Below are positions 1,321 to 20,459 of a DNA stretch of 21,666 nt, in pieces. Every line of letters begins with the position of its first letter. Within the stretch, counting starts at the first letter, position 1. Source of the stretch: a virus. The DNA is taken from the IMG/VR virus record IMGVR_UViG_3300017786_000176, positions 1-21,666 of that record, one strand, 5' to 3'. The notes under the pieces are model-generated. The model searched no databases. It saw nothing but the letters and a program-made list of their open reading frames with translations, and was not told where the DNA came from. The position numbers were made by a program, and so were the translations under genes.

Positions 1321-1740
1321 TTAACCTTCGTAAATAATACCTTGTTCATTTAAAGCTTTTCTATTAGACAAATGATGTTCTTCTGTAAGGTCCTTTGAAT
1401 CACCGTAATATGGAACTGCGTGAAAGTTATCAATCATCATTGTATTTACTGATCTATCAAAATTTCCATAAATAAATAATTCTCCTAAAATTCTGCCAAA
1501 CTTACCTTTGTCATGCGACACTAGTGTTACATCAGCGTTAAGCAATAATGTCTCTAGGAATTTTTTAGATTGCTTACCATAAAATTTTTCTTCAAGATCA
1601 CGAGTCCTAGATTCAGGAGTATCAATACCCATCATTCGCACTCGTTGTTTTTTATAGATCATACCAAAACCTAGATCTACATCGACATCGACTGTATCGC
1701 CATCAACTATTCTTGTCACTTTAACGTTATAAGTATACAT
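1321..1740 (-). CDS. staphylococcal-nuclease-like (thermonuclease) protein
   Basis: A 139-aa SNase-domain protein, Ca2+-dependent and sugar-nonspecific in known members. Visible motifs: VDGDT at 12-16, RVRMMGIDTPE at 33-43, KGKFGRILGELF at 78-89. The catalytic triad of staphylococcal nuclease (Arg35, Glu43, Arg87) has counterparts at Arg35, Glu43 and Arg83, and the metal-binding Asp40-Thr41 is present, so it should be active. No signal peptide is seen; the protein starts directly with the first strand and should act in the cytoplasm. Its ATG overlaps the GroES-like stop by one base (TAATG). Similar single-domain SNases occur in marine T4-like phages. If phage DNA carries modified cytosine, such nucleases could recycle host DNA; that is a guess. 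Confidence 0.88.
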   Translation of the reverse strand: MYTYNVKVTRIVDGDTVDVDVDLGFGMIYKKQRVRMMGIDTPESRTRDLEEKFYGKQSKKFLETLLLNADVTLVSHDKGKFGRILGELFIYGNFDRSVNTMMIDNFHAVPYYGDSKDLTEEHHLSNRKALNEQGIIYEG

Positions 1741-2015
1741 TATGATTCCTCAGCAAGAACAGCTTTAATCCATTCAATATCAATTATTGCTGCTGCTTCA
1801 CGATTAATATCAACTGGCATAGCTTTATTCCAATCTAAAAACACTCTATCTCCAACTTCAATTTGACCTGCTGCGTATTCGCTAACTGCTAATACTAACC
1901 CTGGCTTAGATCCTTTACTTGTTTCTCCGGTTAATATAATACCGCCTGATGTTGTTTGTTCTTTTTCTACAGCTGTTACTAAAACTTGACTGCCTAACAT
2001 TTTTTTAATACTCAT
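1740..2015 (-). CDS. GroES/Cpn10-like co-chaperonin
   Basis: A 91-aa protein of GroES length. It carries the family's beta-barrel pattern: GSQVLVTAVEKE at 8-19, the mobile-loop region TTSGGIIL at 21-28 (the segment that docks on GroEL), GLVLAVS at 39-45, VGDRVFLDW at 54-62, and a C-terminal strand ending IKAVL. It should cap the host GroEL ring and help fold phage proteins, as T4 gp31 does for the major capsid protein; it looks closer to cellular GroES than to gp31. The ATG at 2015 has AGGAG seven bases upstream. It is in the operon with primase-like and nuclease genes, transcribed from the promoter at 3627-3655. Confidence 0.87.
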   Translation of the reverse strand: MSIKKMLGSQVLVTAVEKEQTTSGGIILTGETSKGSKPGLVLAVSEYAAGQIEVGDRVFLDWNKAMPVDINREAAAIIDIEWIKAVLAEES

Positions 2016-6214: not shown

Positions 6215-6243
6215 ATTATATCATAGTTTAAGTCAAATGTAAA
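6215..6243 (-). promoter_or_regulatory. sigma70-type promoter for gp43
   Basis: Minus strand -35 TTTACA (6243-6238), 17-bp spacer, -10 TATAAT (6220-6215), preceded by AAATAAACG. It lies just downstream of the terminator at 6264-6281, so the polymerase gene is insulated from the hsp20 unit. Confidence 0.88.
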
Positions 6244-6253
6244 CGTTTATTTT

Positions 6254-7106: not shown

Positions 7107-8138
7107 TTAATATATTGGGTCTTTAGCCGGATAGCTAACTAACCCTAGTGTGTCTGGTACATAATCTTCTGGAAAAAATGTTTCAGGAAAATCTACATAC
7201 TCTGGTTTATCTGTAACGCATTTATTATTTGCGAGCAATTTATCATATTCGTCACCAAGTTTATTCATCCAATTTATCCAGCCCCAGTCGCATTCAGTCT
7301 GATTTACAAAATCAACTATACCTTCTAATCTTTGATCATACACGTATGTTGGGTAAATTTCATGAAGATGTCTTAAGTCTATATCACCTTGACTCCAAGC
7401 ATATTTTAAATTTAAATACTGCATTGTATCTTCGCCAACAATAAGTTCTGGATCAAATCTAAATTTATTAGTTGTGGCTTTTTTAGAATAAAATGTTATT
7501 CGTAAATGTGGTTCCCAGTTATCAATATAATTATATGCAAAAGAATATATTCTATGTTGAGCTGCATTAAGAGCTATTGAATATCCAGGGCCATCGGGAT
7601 GTAAATTATCTATATGAACTCCAGTCCCCGCGAGCTGTCTTTCCCACCACTTTTTACACTGCATAAATGATCTAAGAGCATAACTTGGTTTATGGCTTGG
7701 ATCTAGCTCACCGTATTGAAAAAGCGATTTTTGAAACCCATTGCCAATTAATCCCAATTGATATTCTAGTGCTATAACATCAGGTGGTGAGTCTGACTGT
7801 GCTATTTTGTCGTATAGCCATATCCCATGTGGCGTAATAAAATCATCACCATCAACTAAAACCATATAATCATTATCAGAAGCTTGGAATATATCCAAAA
7901 CACTATTCTTACCAGTTGATGGAGTTCCATCGCTATCTGTTATATAATATTCTAAATTTTCTGATTTTGCCCAAGCTTCAGCGTCAACTAAATATTGAGA
8001 ATTTCTTTCATAATGTATTTCACAATCGACATTCGAATTAAAGACATATACAATATCTTCTTTAGGAATAGTCTCTAAATGTCTTTTTGTAGTAAATATA
8101 TTACTACTACATAGAACATAATATTTTAACTTAGCCAT
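7107..8138 (-). CDS. GT-A fold glycosyltransferase-like protein
   Basis: A 343-aa protein with features of a GT-A (family 2-like) glycosyltransferase: a first strand near the N-terminus (KLKYYVLCSS), GKNSVLDIFQ near 76-85, and the metal and sugar-nucleotide motif YMVLVDGDDF at about 91-100 (DxD-type). A later VGEDTMQYLNLKY resembles the ED-bearing acceptor region of family 2 enzymes. The C-terminal third is rich in Trp and Tyr with no assigned domain. It follows the tail assembly chaperone by three bases, so it is probably cotranscribed with structural genes and might glycosylate a tail protein, the host surface, or hydroxymethylated DNA; T4's own DNA glucosyltransferases are GT-B. Acceptor and donor are unknown. 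Confidence 0.68.
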   Translation of the reverse strand: MAKLKYYVLCSSNIFTTKRHLETIPKEDIVYVFNSNVDCEIHYERNSQYLVDAEAWAKSENLEYYITDSDGTPSTGKNSVLDIFQASDNDYMVLVDGDDFITPHGIWLYDKIAQSDSPPDVIALEYQLGLIGNGFQKSLFQYGELDPSHKPSYALRSFMQCKKWWERQLAGTGVHIDNLHPDGPGYSIALNAAQHRIYSFAYNYIDNWEPHLRITFYSKKATTNKFRFDPELIVGEDTMQYLNLKYAWSQGDIDLRHLHEIYPTYVYDQRLEGIVDFVNQTECDWGWINWMNKLGDEYDKLLANNKCVTDKPEYVDFPETFFPEDYVPDTLGLVSYPAKDPIY

Positions 8139-8141
8139 AAA

Positions 8142-8675
8142 TTACTCAGTTGGTTTTGCCGGCCAAGTAACGCTTATTGGAAAGGTTTCTTGGGTTGTTA
8201 TATCTCTTAAAGCCTGTCTATATGCAGTCATTTCAGCAGATAAAGTACGATCTGATAATGCAGTGTTATCTGTCATAGATAATAGCTCATCTCTTTTGTT
8301 TCTAATAGCTGAAGCTCTTTCTTCATCAGTTAAATTACGAACTGTTGTAATTCTTGTTCTAAGAGTTTCTGTTTCTTCCCATGTTTCTTCAAGCCATTCA
8401 GCATTTGGATCATAATCGGGATTAATATCAAGTTCAATGTCTTTAAGTGTTCCAGTCCAACTTTCAGGAGTAAATTCTGCTGCTGCTGATTCTCTTTTAT
8501 AAAAAACGGCAGCTTCTATTTGAGCATCTTTGGCTAAATTAATAAGTTTTTCTTCAGATAAATCACCATCAAAATATCTTCTAGTGATATAAGGTCTAAA
8601 GCTTTCTTCAGTAAATTTAAATAATACCATTCTTTCTGTGGTATCAATAAGTTTTATTTCATAATTTTTATACAT
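8142..8675 (-). CDS. phage tail assembly chaperone-like protein
   Basis: A 177-aa protein. The last 60 residues carry the pattern of the phage tail assembly chaperone family (Phage_tail_APC type): RNKRDELLSMTDNTALSDR, then AYRQALRDITTQETFP, then VTWPAKP. The N-terminal half contains a probable beta domain and no recognised motif. Such proteins are usually encoded beside tail fibres and help fibre folding or attachment. It lies directly after the fibre-like gene at 8688-9431 (12-base gap), with AGGA before the ATG at 8675. The pairing supports assignment of both to the tail tip or fibre. Confidence 0.78.
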   Translation of the reverse strand: MYKNYEIKLIDTTERMVLFKFTEESFRPYITRRYFDGDLSEEKLINLAKDAQIEAAVFYKRESAAAEFTPESWTGTLKDIELDINPDYDPNAEWLEETWEETETLRTRITTVRNLTDEERASAIRNKRDELLSMTDNTALSDRTLSAEMTAYRQALRDITTQETFPISVTWPAKPTE

Positions 8676-8687
8676 TGGTTTTTCCTA

Positions 8688-9431
8688 TTAAGTATTTAAT
8701 CTAATTGCTATATGACCTGAGTCTGACATATCAACTGGCCTACCGATTGAAGCTCCTCTAATTGCTCGCCATAAAGCAATTTCAGCTGAATTTGTGCACT
8801 TAAATCTCCAGTAATAAGCATATGCGCCATCATGATAACTACCAGCAATTTGGCCAAATTCATCTGCATTGGTTCGATTTAATGTTGTTGAGTAATTAGT
8901 AAAATTTACTCCAGTAACCGGCTCGCCGTAAGATTGTTTAATGTTATTATATCTAAAATTTATGCTTGTAAAACCACTATTACCTGAACCTCTTTTAGTG
9001 ATAAATATTTGACCGTTATTAGTACCATCTTGTTGGGTATAAATTCCTATTAATTTTTGCCCTGTAGAGAATGTTAAATTTCTTGATATATGACCAAATG
9101 AACTAACTGAAGATCCACTTTCTCCGCTAGAATATTGAAATAGACCACCCTTATACGATTGCCAACCACTTCTTGCTCGACCGTCATCATCTGAGTCCCA
9201 TGACCGTGCACAAGTTAATTCTGCGGTTTTACCACTAGCGCCAAAAAAATCTTGAAAGCTTATTTCAGGTTCTGTATTATATTGCGCAATATATGGAAAC
9301 GGTGTTGGCGCATAAGGATCACCATTTGGATGATAAAAATCGGCCATTTCAATTTCATTACCAGTGGGACTATTACCGGTAAACTCAATATATAAATCAG
9401 TCAAATCTACGTTTGACGTTGCTATGGGCAT
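8688..9431 (-). CDS. tail-fibre-like virion structural protein
   Basis: A 247-aa protein, rich in Gly, Ser, Asn and aromatic residues with few Lys. The N-terminus (residues 1-70) has the layout of short phage fibre and structural proteins: VDLTDLYIEFTGN, then ISFQDFFGASGKT at about 56-68. The rest looks like beta-rich host-contact sequence with no named domain. It is followed by a tail assembly chaperone, which supports a fibre or adhesin role at the virion surface. The ATG at 9431 has AAGGAG eight bases upstream, six bases after regA. Expression is probably late, although no late box stands directly upstream; the nearest TATAAATA is inside gp62 at 10028-10035. Confidence 0.62.
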   Translation of the reverse strand: MPIATSNVDLTDLYIEFTGNSPTGNEIEMADFYHPNGDPYAPTPFPYIAQYNTEPEISFQDFFGASGKTAELTCARSWDSDDDGRARSGWQSYKGGLFQYSSGESGSSVSSFGHISRNLTFSTGQKLIGIYTQQDGTNNGQIFITKRGSGNSGFTSINFRYNNIKQSYGEPVTGVNFTNYSTTLNRTNADEFGQIAGSYHDGAYAYYWRFKCTNSAEIALWRAIRGASIGRPVDMSDSGHIAIRLNT

Positions 9432-12548: not shown

Positions 12549-12577
12549 ATTATAACATAGTTTTGTCATAATGTAAA
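12549..12577 (-). promoter_or_regulatory. sigma70-type promoter for gp45
   Basis: Minus strand -35 TTTACA (12577-12572), 17-bp spacer, -10 TATAAT (12554-12549), with AAATAAACG upstream. The -35 is nine bases past the stop of the DUF3310-like gene. Confidence 0.87.
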
Positions 12578-12585
12578 CGTTTATT

Positions 12586-12880: not shown

Positions 12881-14026
12881 TTAGTCTTCTCCAAAGATTT
12901 CTTCATGTGTTGGCGTTTCAACGTCTGTTGCTTCAATTTCTTCTACGCCAGCATCTACTTTACTGTATAGATCTAAGAATGCAGACTTTGTATCTTCATC
13001 AAACCTTGCAATACATAGATCAATTGATTTTGCTCTATTATTAAAAATAGAGTAAGTTTGAGCAATATGACAAAGCCTACGAGTTGAAATAACTTCGTCA
13101 ACACCTTCATCATAAAAAGTTTTTCTAATAATGTCAGCCCATGTTACAAGCTTTTCAACAAAATCAGCATCATCAGCTCCAAACTTAGCCATGTGATTAT
13201 TAAGAATTTTAGTCTCAATAGATGGCGATGGAAACTTTTGATCAATAGCAACTGTAAACCTTTCAAGAAAAGCTTCATCAATAATAGAAGCTGCAGTAAA
13301 CCTGCCATCTTCTGAGCCTTTACCCTTAGTATTAGCTGTTGCTATAACATTGAAGCCAGCTTTAGGAGAAACTGTTTCACCTGTTTTCTTAACGAGAACA
13401 GGCTTGCCTTCAAGTATACCTTGCAGACACATAATTTTATTTGTAGCTCTATCCACTTCGTCCAACAGTAGAATCGCACCGTTTTCCATAGCCTTAAGCA
13501 CGGGCCCTTTAGAGAATACAGTTTCTCCATCAATAAGTCTAAACCCGCCAAGCAAGTCGTCTTCGTCCGTTTCAGGATTAATTTGTACACGTATAAACTC
13601 CCTATTAAGTTTTGAGCAAGCTTGCTCTACCATAAAGGTCTTACCATTACCAGATAGACCTGAAATATAAACTGGATAAAACATTTTCGATTTAACAATC
13701 TTTACGATATCACCAAATGCGCCCCAAGGCACAAACGTTGGATCAGCTTTCGCAAAAGATTTTTCTTCATTAACAATAGATTGCATTTTAGCCTTTGGTG
13801 ATATATTTATCACGTTTGTTTCAACTGGCTGAAGTAGAGCACTTAGATCGTAAGTACCAATTTTTACCCTGTTGTCTTTCTGCATAAGTGGGTTGTAATC
13901 CTTTCCAGTATAGCCCAAAGCCTTACCAGTATTTTCGATTACGTTTTTTCTAAACGAAGTTTGATCTGGGTAATTAGTAGCTAACTCGTTTAAGATGTTT
14001 TTTGTTGAGATTTTCATGTCTTTCAT
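12881..14026 (-). CDS. cobS: CobS-like (MoxR-type) AAA+ ATPase
   Basis: A 381-aa AAA+ protein like those called CobS in marine T4-like phages. Walker A GLSGNGKT at 123-130, Walker B ILLLDEVD at 185-192, the strand NVIATANTKGKGSEDGRF (sensor-1 region) near 228-245, and EAFLERF after it (arginine-finger region). In cobalamin synthesis CobS works with the VWA protein CobT to insert cobalt; here the partner gene upstream (14226-16343) encodes a VWA protein, but no cobalamin genes are near, so the pair more likely remodels a phage or host complex. The C-terminal tail is acidic. The ATG at 14026 has AAGGA eight bases upstream; a TTG at 14044 is less likely. Promoter at 14056-14084. Confidence 0.9.
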   Translation of the reverse strand: MKDMKISTKNILNELATNYPDQTSFRKNVIENTGKALGYTGKDYNPLMQKDNRVKIGTYDLSALLQPVETNVINISPKAKMQSIVNEEKSFAKADPTFVPWGAFGDIVKIVKSKMFYPVYISGLSGNGKTFMVEQACSKLNREFIRVQINPETDEDDLLGGFRLIDGETVFSKGPVLKAMENGAILLLDEVDRATNKIMCLQGILEGKPVLVKKTGETVSPKAGFNVIATANTKGKGSEDGRFTAASIIDEAFLERFTVAIDQKFPSPSIETKILNNHMAKFGADDADFVEKLVTWADIIRKTFYDEGVDEVISTRRLCHIAQTYSIFNNRAKSIDLCIARFDEDTKSAFLDLYSKVDAGVEEIEATDVETPTHEEIFGED

Positions 14027-14055
14027 AATGTAGTTCCTTATCAAATAATATGTAT

Positions 14056-14084
14056 ATTATATCATAGTTTCAATGTATTGTAAA
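14056..14084 (-). promoter_or_regulatory. sigma70-type promoter for the CobS-like gene
   Basis: Minus strand -35 TTTACA (14084-14079), 17-bp spacer, -10 TATAAT (14061-14056). The segment from this promoter to about 14141 is related to the spacer at 16370-16445. Confidence 0.88.
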
Positions 14085-14095
14085 CAGTTTTAGTG

Positions 14096-14119
14096 AAAAA
14101 AAGTGAATTATTTTCACTT
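14096..14119 (-). terminator. intrinsic terminator after the CobT-like gene
   Basis: Minus strand stem AAGTGAA / TTCACTT (14119-14101), loop AATAA, running directly into TTTTTTT. The stem is A/T-rich but perfect over 7 bp. It separates the VWA gene from the CobS promoter, so the two partner genes are transcribed independently. Confidence 0.68.
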
Positions 14120-14122
14120 TTC

Positions 14123-14141
14123 TTAGATTATTTAGTTATAT
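14123..14141 (-). repeat. spacer repeat ahead of the CobS promoter
   Basis: Minus strand ATATAACTAAATAATCTAA, identical to 16427-16445 except one base. Both copies lie a few tens of bases upstream of a family promoter and downstream of a preceding stop codon. It may be a duplicated spacer or a shared binding site. Confidence 0.6.
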
Positions 14142-14167
14142 AATAACCCTCTGTTATACACATCACG

Positions 14168-14220
14168 CTGAGTGAATCTAATTTGGTTATCAATAGGGTA
14201 ACCTTAACCAATTCACTCAG
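14168..14220 (-). ncRNA. long hairpin in the 3' untranslated region of the CobT-like gene
   Basis: Minus strand: CTGAGTGAA pairs with TTCACTCAG (9 bp), continuing into TTGGTTA with TAACCAA (7 bp), a 6-nt one-sided bulge and a 15-nt loop. The element starts five bases after the stop codon. No U tract follows, so it is not a standard terminator. The stop codon region (AGTGAATCT, 14228-14220) could also pair with AGATTCACT on the right arm, giving an alternative structure. Confidence 0.5.
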
Positions 14221-14225
14221 ATTCA

Positions 14226-16343
14226 CTAAGCTACGATCCTACCAAAGGTTGTCATAAGTACTTTGTTCTGTTTCTTACTCTTTGAGTATTTCTTAAAAGC
14301 ATTTGCCATTTGATTCTTAGTTTGATCAGAAGTTACACCAAACTCATCATTTTCTGTTGCTAGCTTATTACCACCCTTGATCAGATAAAACTCTTTGTAT
14401 CCCAAAGCATCTTTACGAACAACTACTTTGTTTTTTCTATATTCTTTACTAGCTTCGCTTCTATGGCTGTCGTCCCAATTATGAATTTGAGCAATTTTGT
14501 TATTAAACATTCTATTATCGTCAGCCATAAAGAAACCAATTGTGTTTGTTGCGTATCTTTTACTGATATTTTCAAGTAGGGCTTGTGTAACTGAACTTGC
14601 AGAATCAGCTTTAACGAGCTTACGATCAATAATCATATTGATACCTCTATAAGAGCCTCGGGTTTCTACTTTGTTATCTTCTAGCTTACCATCATTGTAA
14701 GTTTGAAGCCTGTTAACATCACCATCAGAAAGTACTACTAAATTCATCTTTTCAACTTGGTTTTTTGATTTAAAATCTTTAATAAGCTCGTGAGCCATAA
14801 CCAAAGCTTGGTTAAGTGGAGTAGAACCAAAGTCTTCACACTTACCTATCATATCTCTACCAGTCCAAGAAGATACTTTAGATCTTACATATAATGCTTT
14901 TATCGACTCTTCAAAGTCTGATTTTTTTAGCTTTGACGACGTTAGTAATGGAAGCGCGATATTGTCTAGATCCATATCACCGTCAAGTAGAAGTCCTGTT
15001 TCTCGCAGTCCATAAAAATCTAAAGCGCTGTTTGTTGTAGTAAATGCATAAACATCGAATGGAATGTTTACTTGCTTGCAGAAAAGTACCAAGTGTATTA
15101 ATTGATCTAAAACTTTTGGTAAAGATTCGTACATAGATCCAGAATAATCGATTAGCATAATCATACCATGACTTTTAGCATCGTATAATCTAGTAGTTTG
15201 CTTAAAGATATCCTCATTAACTTTATAAGAGTGCAGTTTATTAACATCAAGAACTCCAGTTTTTGCTGTAGTTGCTTTAGCCCACTGAGTGGCCGCTTTT
15301 CGCATTTCAAACTCTTTTACTGCAATTCCAACGTTTCTTTTTATGTCTTTTATTGCTTTAGGATACTGTAACTCAGCATCAGATATTTCAGATATTTGCA
15401 TAGTATGAAGACTTTCTTTAGACTTTGCTCGTTGAGCTTTAACTTCAGAGTATGGTATTACAATCTTCTTTTTTACTTCTTTATTAATGTCTTCAACAAC
15501 AAGAAGCTGTCTACCATCTTCGTCAACATCCAAAAGAGATGATTCGTTTTCTCTAAATGCTTCGTCAGTAATAGAAACTTCTCCACCAGAACCTTTTGTT
15601 GGATTTTGTTCTTCAGGAGCTTTGTCTTCTTCGCCTTCTTCATTGTCATCTTCAGGAGCACTAGATCCTTGATCATCAGTTTCTTCTTCGTTTTCTTCTT
15701 CTCCATCGCCTTCATTTGAATCAGAAAAATCATCTTCAGAATCATCGTTTGAATCTTCTTTCTGATTTTTGTCATCTTCGTCTTGATCTTCGTCTTCAAT
15801 AGACTTATCGTATGCAACTATGTCTTTAACAAGTTCTAAAACGTCTTGGAAGTCTTCAGTTGTATTTGCTCTATCTAAAAATGCTTTTTCTTCATCGCTA
15901 AATTCAAGGTCAATGTGATCACCAACTTTAGCTTGAAGATTAATTTTATCAATAATTTTTAGAGATGATAGATCAATATCATTAGTGCCAAAGAAATTAT
16001 CATCAAAAAGCTTACTATAAGCTCTTGAGAATGGACCAACAAGTCCTGGATATCGAGCTTTAACTTTACGCTCAATCCTAGCATCTTCAATAACATTAAT
16101 GTATGACCTAGGACATCCAACTAGCTTCTCAGGACTATCATGCCAGCCCTCATATGGAGTTTCTAAAGCGTGACCAACTTCGTGACCGACAAATAGATCG
16201 TATACGTCTTTACCCATATCTTTCCACAGAGGAAGACCAAGTACACGGTTTTTAATGTCAAACCAAGGAGTCTGATAATTACCATGTCTAATAGTAATAT
16301 TTTCTTTGGCTAAAAGCTTTGGTAGGCTAGAGTTGTTATACAT
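14226..16343 (-). CDS. CobT-like protein: HExxH metallopeptidase-like domain, acidic linker, VWA domain
   Basis: A 705-aa multidomain protein. N-terminal part: GHEVGHALE with the zinc motif HEVGH at 54-58, and NVIEDARIERK at 83-93, a likely third ligand (gluzincin-like); this suggests a peptidase. Residues about 183-250 are an almost pure Asp/Glu/Ser linker, as in CobT. The C-terminal VWA domain has the MIDAS motif DYSGS, followed by GSTPLNQAL (MIDAS Thr) and LVVLSDGD. VWA proteins bind AAA+ partners of the MoxR/CobS class, and such a gene lies next downstream. It has its own promoter (16370-16398), AAGGA before the ATG at 16343, and three in-frame stops at the end (TAG TGA, then TGA). Peptidase activity and target are unproven; the pair could dismantle or mature a protein complex. 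Confidence 0.87.
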   Translation of the reverse strand: MYNNSSLPKLLAKENITIRHGNYQTPWFDIKNRVLGLPLWKDMGKDVYDLFVGHEVGHALETPYEGWHDSPEKLVGCPRSYINVIEDARIERKVKARYPGLVGPFSRAYSKLFDDNFFGTNDIDLSSLKIIDKINLQAKVGDHIDLEFSDEEKAFLDRANTTEDFQDVLELVKDIVAYDKSIEDEDQDEDDKNQKEDSNDDSEDDFSDSNEGDGEEENEEETDDQGSSAPEDDNEEGEEDKAPEEQNPTKGSGGEVSITDEAFRENESSLLDVDEDGRQLLVVEDINKEVKKKIVIPYSEVKAQRAKSKESLHTMQISEISDAELQYPKAIKDIKRNVGIAVKEFEMRKAATQWAKATTAKTGVLDVNKLHSYKVNEDIFKQTTRLYDAKSHGMIMLIDYSGSMYESLPKVLDQLIHLVLFCKQVNIPFDVYAFTTTNSALDFYGLRETGLLLDGDMDLDNIALPLLTSSKLKKSDFEESIKALYVRSKVSSWTGRDMIGKCEDFGSTPLNQALVMAHELIKDFKSKNQVEKMNLVVLSDGDVNRLQTYNDGKLEDNKVETRGSYRGINMIIDRKLVKADSASSVTQALLENISKRYATNTIGFFMADDNRMFNNKIAQIHNWDDSHRSEASKEYRKNKVVVRKDALGYKEFYLIKGGNKLATENDEFGVTSDQTKNQMANAFKKYSKSKKQNKVLMTTFGRIVA

Positions 16344-16369: not shown

Positions 16370-16398
16370 ATTATACCACAAAAACAAGGCAATGTAAA
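16370..16398 (-). promoter_or_regulatory. sigma70-type promoter for the CobT-like gene
   Basis: Minus strand -35 TTTACA (16398-16393), 17-bp spacer, -10 TATAAT (16375-16370). The spacer sequence differs more from the family than the other copies, but the boxes and spacing are the same. Confidence 0.85.
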
Positions 16399-16426
16399 CT
16401 GTTTTGGTGAAATAAACCCAATTATT

Positions 16427-19943: not shown

Positions 19944-19972
19944 ATTATATCATAGTTTGGGTCAAATGTAAA
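19944..19972 (-). promoter_or_regulatory. sigma70-type promoter for the gp55-47-46 operon
   Basis: Minus strand -35 TTTACA (19972-19967), 17-bp spacer, -10 TATAAT (19949-19944). It stands back to back with the plus-strand copy at 20017-20045, 44 bp between the -35 boxes. Confidence 0.88.
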
Positions 19973-20016
19973 CAATTATTTTATTAAATTATTTTCAATT
20001 TATTTCACCTGAACCG

Positions 20017-20045
20017 TTTACAAATGGTCAAAAGTATGATATAAT
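20017..20045 (+). promoter_or_regulatory. plus-strand sigma70-type promoter, antisense to the Sm-like gene and uvsW
   Basis: TTTACA (20017-20022), 17-bp spacer, TATAAT (20040-20045). The segment AAAGTATGATATAATATA is shared with the promoter at 870-898, so this is a true family member in the opposite direction. No plus-strand gene with a good ribosome site follows. The expected start is near 20052 and the transcript would run through G-rich sequence into the complement of 20082-21666. Confidence 0.82.
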
Positions 20046-20081: not shown

Positions 20082-20459
20082 TTAATGTATTGTTGGTTCA
20101 ATGTCTTCTTCATTGTCGCTTCTTTCATCGGTCAACTTCTCACCTTCAAGTTCATATTCAGACATAGCTTCAAACTCGCTACGTATAATATCTTGACATG
20201 AATACTTAATGTAAGACTCTTTTGTTTCTTCTACTACTTCTGTATGGTTAATCACAAAGCGTTTCATGATTTTAAACACCTTTTTATCAGAGAAGGGAAA
20301 CCAATCTCCAAAAGTAAAAACGCCTTCTGGTGTTACTTGCACGACCGCAGGTCGTTCTACAATAAACGATTGCTCGTTTGAGCTTTGAACATAACAAATA
20401 AGATCTTCGCTATTTGTCAGTTTAAAATGTCTTATGTCTACCTTTTTAATCGATTCCAT
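20082..20459 (-). CDS. small Sm-like (SH3-barrel) conserved phage protein, copy B
   Basis: A 125-aa protein of unknown function directly after uvsW (TAAATG junction, no gap). Residues about 10-90 align with the 94-aa product of 3317-3601 (FKLTNSEDLICYV against IRLTSGEEVIATI, ERPAVV against EKPVAL, then EG, F and P-F/Y). A C-terminal extension of about 35 residues is strongly acidic (EGEKLTDERSDNEEDIEP). No Shine-Dalgarno sequence precedes the ATG; the upstream bases are pure A/T. Translation may rely on coupling to uvsW. A plus-strand promoter lies just past its 3' end, so it is exposed to antisense RNA. Confidence 0.7.
   Translation of the reverse strand: MESIKKVDIRHFKLTNSEDLICYVQSSNEQSFIVERPAVVQVTPEGVFTFGDWFPFSDKKVFKIMKRFVINHTEVVEETKESYIKYSCQDIIRSEFEAMSEYELEGEKLTDERSDNEEDIEPTIH

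Follow-up and report, generated by a model that had tools for sequence, protein, structure and literature searches.

Early-type promoters and a conserved zinc-peptidase-like site in a VWA protein paired with a CobS-like ATPase of marine T4-like phages

A VWA protein and an ATPase within a replication gene region

The 705-aa protein encoded at 14226–16343 and the CobS-like ATPase encoded beside it probably form an early-expressed AAA+/VWA remodelling machine with a predicted gluzincin-like peptidase domain, serving host takeover or replication. The sequence-only reading had proposed an ATP-driven remodelling or proteolysis machine, and this proposal gained support, as a prediction, from the AAA+/VWA pairing, the intact zinc-peptidase-like site, the constant association of the two genes, and scores far below the CobT and CobS thresholds.

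The window, the whole 21.7-kb virus record analysed here, has a gene order typical of the replication and recombination region of marine T4-like phages: UvsW, gp55, gp47, gp46, the 705-aa protein, the CobS-like ATPase, gp45, gp44 and, later, gp43. The closest sequenced DNA polymerase is that of phage C48C1 (Kyanoviridae), with 51% identity. The pair is flanked by genes for replication and recombination rather than for heads or tails. Apart from the cobS-like ATPase gene, no B12 or chlorophyll gene turned up in the window genes that were scanned, and cobN was absent from the window. The earlier statement that no cobalamin or chlorophyll gene lies nearby thus holds for the other scanned genes and needs qualifying for the ATPase itself, which databases label 'porphyrin biosynthesis' or CobS. 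Defence-system profiles returned nothing of note. Elsewhere in the window, a GroES-like co-chaperonin gene (1740–2015, minus strand) lies close to MazG-like, primase-like and nuclease-like genes. A tail-fibre-assembly-like gene (8142–8675, minus strand; PHROG 4912 and others) sits within the replication gene block, flanked by genes at 7107–8138 and 8688–9431 that have no PHROG match.

The 705-aa protein, encoded on the minus strand, matched PHROG 459 over residues 5–704 (E 3.6e-178). In its full-length model (pLDDT 75.9), a compact gluzincin-like N-domain is connected through a disordered acidic linker to a helical stretch and the VWA domain. The N-terminal domain (residues 1–182; 15798–16343, minus strand) reached a pLDDT of 88 when modelled alone and carries two helices of interest. 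The first, residues 45–61, bears HEVGH at residues 54–58 (16170–16184, minus strand); the second, residues 79–97, bears NVIEDARIE at residues 83–91 (16071–16097, minus strand), in which N83, E86, D87, R89 and E91 are invariant. From the sequence, E86 or D87, located 28–29 residues past H58, is the likely third zinc ligand. The linker (residues 193–254; 15582–15767, minus strand) was modelled with a pLDDT below 50, and Asp and Glu make up 49% of residues 179–256. The MIDAS motif DYSGS occupies residues 399–403 (15135–15149, minus strand) and is completed by T508 and D540, all five MIDAS residues being invariant. The gene coordinates given in the sequence-only reading, together with its placement of the HEVGH, the NVIEDARIE, the acidic linker and the intact MIDAS, were confirmed.

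The adjacent gene (12881–14044, minus strand) encodes a protein matching PHROG 249 (E 1e-113) and AAA_5 above its cut-off (E 8.9e-22). Its best solved ATPase relatives are midasin, CobS and NorQ, placing it in the MoxR/CobS class, as had been claimed; it measures 387 aa from a TTG start and the previously reported 381 aa from the first ATG (14026). The co-occurrence for which a search had been suggested was found: in all 74 loci with room for it (more than 500 nt), the same strand carries the cobS-like gene immediately downstream, and GenBank record counts are equal for the two genes among the phages listed under Synechococcus (365), 'Cyanophage' (61) and Prochlorococcus (24). Between the two genes, the stretch 14090–14240 (minus strand) forms strong hairpins (-39.3 kcal/mol, z -4.1 against shuffles). 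The first of these is recognisable in several relatives; in L010 the inner stem differs in sequence yet pairs, and in L002 the hairpin is absent.

Distribution of the pair among phages

PHROG 459, labelled 'peptidase', and PHROG 249, labelled 'porphyrin biosynthesis', are found in about 460 phage records and correspond to T4-GC 146 and T4-GC 150/cobS of cyanophages, with full-length matches here. In P-SSM2, Syn1 and P-HM2 the pair has the same neighbours in the same order as in the window. Cultured cyanophage members are 29–37% identical to the window protein, which belongs to an environmental clade. Pelagiphage Mosig, which infects HTCC1062, also carries the pair. Related proteins near AAA+ genes were found in Rhizobium phages, SSU5-type phage-plasmids, ICP2, Roseobacter phage CRP-810, Gordonia phage Hollow and Bacteroides phage BS162P1. 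Phage-plasmids of Salmonella, Klebsiella and E. coli carry related pairs as well. In other, unrelated phages too, genes for ligase, DnaE, primase or polymerase are found close to the pair.

Several searches were negative. A viral scan with the CRP-810 protein returned no relatives, PHROG 459 was detected in 0 of 14 control cellular genomes, and the pair goes unmentioned in a paper on an SSU5-like plasmid. PHROG 459 was also absent from the whole record of C48C1, despite the close DNA polymerase, indicating that the machine is not essential in all such phages. In C48C1 (L240, 23152–25608), gp46 is followed directly by gp45; the pair was either lost by natural deletion or never present in this lineage.

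Predicted folds of the two halves

The C-terminal half most closely matched the NorD VWA domain in the NorQ complex (Z 16.6, 254 residues, rmsd 5.5), followed by the midasin MIDAS domain (Z 16.0, 214 residues, rmsd 3.4). The VWA fold and the DxSxS, T and D residues are all present, identifying this half as a VWA domain with a MIDAS. The phage ATPase likewise matches NorQ, extending the likeness to both partners, whereas a metallopeptidase domain is not reported in the NorQ–NorD system. NorD acts on nitric oxide reductase.

The nearest solved folds of the N-domain are those of zinc metallopeptidases, namely ArdC, abylysin, IrrE, BlaR1, jannalysin and selecase, all in weak matches (Z no higher than 5.4; Foldseek E no better than 0.27). 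As in the minigluzincins and the ArdC- and IrrE-type enzymes, the modelled helix bearing HExxH precedes one that carries acidic residues; unlike them, the N-domain is fused to a VWA domain, and these low-scoring folds are unaccompanied by a sequence-family match. Against viral models, the N-domain retrieved its relatives first. Next came entries bearing the names CobT or VWFA, some of them from haloarchaeal viruses, with SprT-, M48- and IrrE-like proteins matching less strongly. A Pfam search with 40 N-domains assigned no family, DUF5700, a putative zinc peptidase family, appearing at E 0.088 in three members; a PDB sequence search with the SSU5 N-domain gave chance matches only. CobT was missing from the fold-search matches, an absence that is uninformative since the CobT entries may be newer than the library.

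Conservation and loss of the zinc site

A scan of IMG/VR yielded 80 relatives with identities of about 46–90%, 77 of them full-length, and 40 non-redundant members were aligned. HEV[GS]H, NxxEDxRIE and DxSGSM were each kept in 77/77 full-length relatives, so that the conserved HExxH expected of a gluzincin is present throughout; the chance expectation for a protein of this kind is about 0.02 HExxH motifs. Every zinc-site residue listed above, together with D399, S401, S403, T508 and D540, was invariant among the 40 members. An alignment with members 16–22% identical to the Rhizobium phage 'CobT' retained 26 invariant columns, including HE..H, N..ED and D.SGSM, and N..ED is unchanged in the Rhizobium phage relative as well. 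Furthermore, HExxH was present in all 54 Rhizobium- and SSU5-group IMG/VR members with a readable N-terminal site.

The sequence-only reading had held that homologues without the HExxH but with the rest of the protein would speak against it. None was found among the marine relatives (77/77 keep the motif); outside this clade, Pseudomonas phage nickie, an Acinetobacter plasmid and true CobT are of this kind. In nickie and the plasmid the whole zinc site is gone, replaced by DSEISK and DQEVAK. These two relatives (L089, 3983–6067; L092, 4001–5923) have lost both His residues and N..ED and retained the linker, the VWA domain and the CobS-like partner, making them natural dead-site variants useful as controls. 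On the tree, the zinc-site losses need two changes, of which well-supported branches force only one; long branches meet in this tree. Loss of the whole site in nickie, the Acinetobacter plasmid and CobT indicates that some AAA+/VWA pairs can dispense with the peptidase site, which is different from showing it to be inactive in the window protein; as these relatives illustrate, the ATPase–VWA core can work without a peptidase.

The same relatives, which lost the site and kept the rest, favour an alternative in which the zinc site is real but non-proteolytic, holding a peptide or stabilising the fold while the machine only remodels. We regard this as doubtful: the Glu of HExxH, needless in a purely structural site, is invariant in the 77 marine proteins and retained by the Rhizobium and SSU5 groups, and where the site is lost both His residues and N..ED vanish together, as in a functional unit.

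Early-type promoters precede both genes

Both genes are preceded by promoters of the GTTTACA-N17-TATAAT type with TG ahead of the -10 element. GTTTAC is the -35 region element of T4 early promoters (PMC1524935). The promoter of the 705-aa gene, GTTTACATTGCCTTGTTTTTGTGGTATAAT, lies at 16370–16399 and that of the cobS-like gene, GTTTACAATACATTGAAACTATGATATAAT, at 14056–14085, both on the minus strand. The same type occurs, also on the minus strand, upstream of gp45 (sliding clamp; 12549–12578), gp43 (DNA polymerase; 6215–6244) and gp55 (late sigma factor; 19944–19973). In total, eight such sites were observed in the window against 0.03 expected. A matrix that left out the promoters of the 705-aa and cobS-like genes was applied with a threshold above 99% of controls; the upstream regions of 62/77 VWA genes and 70/76 cobS genes passed it, these relatives not being mutually independent. 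The T4-type late element, TATAAATA, stood upstream of 5/77 VWA genes and 0/76 cobS genes.

The promoter type shared with gp43, gp45 and gp55 suggests, at the level of sequence, that the pair most likely acts in host takeover and genome replication. An early promoter is compatible with later use as well. The main texts on P-HM2, S-CREM1 and pelagiphages say neither when the pair is expressed nor whether it is found in virions. A further copy of the early-type promoter, at 20016–20045 on the plus strand, opposes all surrounding genes and points towards the antisense of 20082–20459 and UvsW; it may drive a small RNA.

The earlier suggestion of host takeover or virion maturation is divided by these promoters, which favour takeover or replication over virion maturation. 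In group 2.2 jumbo phages, a MoxR AAA+ ATPase paired with a metallopeptidase–VWA protein has been proposed to act in virion assembly (PMC7824862), and by its described architecture this is the same domain fusion beside a MoxR-class ATPase. The window pair, read in the same way, would be a virion-assembly chaperone with a maturation peptidase. The same publication reports a MoxR–VWA pair without a peptidase for archaeal virus tail development (PMC7824862), and T4-like phages do process virion proteins. However, both genes here have early-type promoters, the late element is rare or absent upstream of them, their neighbours are replication and recombination genes, and C48C1 has its own head maturation protease without having this pair, making a virion role for the pair unlikely.

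Relation to cobaltochelatase CobT and CobS

The window ATPase scored 61 bits (E 9.8e-17) on the CobS equivalog TIGR01650 against a cut-off of 558, and the 705-aa protein scored 8.7 bits on the CobT equivalog TIGR01651 against a cut-off of 759, where a true CobT scored 1093. Pfam PF06213, the CobT N-domain family, did not match the window protein, though phage-plasmid relatives match; the scores were 325 bits for CobT and 129.6 for SSU5 against a cut-off of 26.1. Profile comparison of CobT with the phage-plasmid N-domains gave 48.2, with the best of 100 column shuffles at 22.2, demonstrating homology, and comparison of the marine N-domain with the phage-plasmid group gave 87.8, with shuffles at 21.6. 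PHROG 459 also matched SSU5 residues 75–140 (E 1.3e-5). A direct match between the marine and CobT N-domain profiles was rejected (20.1 against 20.5 shuffled), so that the link holds only via the phage-plasmid group.

At the homologous position, CobT carries RGxxDxxAL[RK] in 79 of 80 rhizobial-type genomes, with no HExxH there, and RGxxDxxAL or a near variant is also found in most of 30 more diverse CobT genomes. The two HExxH-like strings among the 80 genomes lie about 135 residues upstream of this position. When 289 genomes from the class to which G001 belongs were searched with the phage-plasmid profile, 219 matched; among the matches listed, only the linker and the VWA half were covered, as expected of CobT. 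In the VWA tree CobT sits among HExxH-bearing rows. At sequence level, CobT looks like a relative whose peptidase site was lost: homology follows from the profile scores, and we infer the direction of change, since the VWA tree is unrooted with long branches.

These results bear on a published conflict. The pair of cyanophages and archaeal viruses has been read as CobT/CobS, with the 'peptidase' label deemed a mistake (PMC8651126). The homologous CobT N-domain lacking the site, set beside the intact site in the phage, indicates that this label does not look mistaken. Cobaltochelatase CobS/CobT (PDB 9uka) resembles the phage system in having an AAA+ and VWA pair, an acidic linker and an N-domain homologous via the phage-plasmid relatives; it differs in that CobT has no HExxH and in that its partner CobN is not encoded in the phage window.

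Could the pair nevertheless be the CobT/CobS of cobaltochelatase, joining host CobN to raise the B12 supply? The CobS homology is genuine, CobT homology runs through the phage-plasmid relatives, and CobN is present in Synechococcus elongatus, one of the 14 control genomes, so that a partner could exist in cyanobacterial hosts. Against this, both proteins fall far under the equivalog cut-offs, the phage protein retains a zinc site missing in true CobT, the window has no cobN, and related pairs reside in phage-plasmids of Salmonella, Klebsiella and E. coli, bacteria not known to have a CobN-type aerobic pathway. The Mosig host HTCC1062 belongs, moreover, to SAR11, which is a genomically encoded B12 auxotroph (PMC9296465). 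A cobaltochelatase role is therefore distinctly unlikely, and the early-type promoter common with replication genes, together with the zinc site missing from CobT, is better explained by a protein-processing machine than by a B12 gene.

Discussion

The proposed remodelling machine would operate as follows. By family membership, the ATPase would form a MoxR/CobS-class AAA+ ring. The VWA MIDAS would bind a client or dock on the ring, by homology with NorQ–NorD, CobS–CobT and midasin. The N-terminal gluzincin-like domain, tethered by the flexible acidic linker, would cut or hold the protein pulled by the ring; its site is conserved, and catalysis is predicted from that site. The pair would thereby act in host takeover and genome replication, as its promoter type suggests, and not in B12 synthesis or late virion maturation.

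The family (PHROG 459), the architecture (PMC7824862) and both sides of the annotation conflict (PMC8651126, PMC7824862) are already known. New here are the promoter result with its controls, the view of CobT as a probable dead-site relative, the conserved-site counts and the weighing of the published readings. The balance favours neither published reading exactly: the peptidase label is supported, the B12 role is weakened, and early rather than late expression is indicated by the promoter sequences, in contrast to the virion assembly proposed for the group 2.2 jumbo-phage pair.

The cobS gene, which belongs to the core genes of marine T4-like cyanophages (PMC3037559), is often reported as a viral B12 gene. 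More tentatively than for the machine itself, we suggest that the marine cyanophage 'cobS' may be non-metabolic, driving a zinc-peptidase/VWA protein that is made early with the replisome and acts on a host or replication protein by removing or cutting it, and that cobaltochelatase CobT may be a dead-site offshoot of such machines. If this is true, ecological claims on viral B12 metabolism that rest on cobS would need revision, a common unsolved phage machine would become testable with simple mutants, and the origin of the CobT N-terminal domain would be explained.
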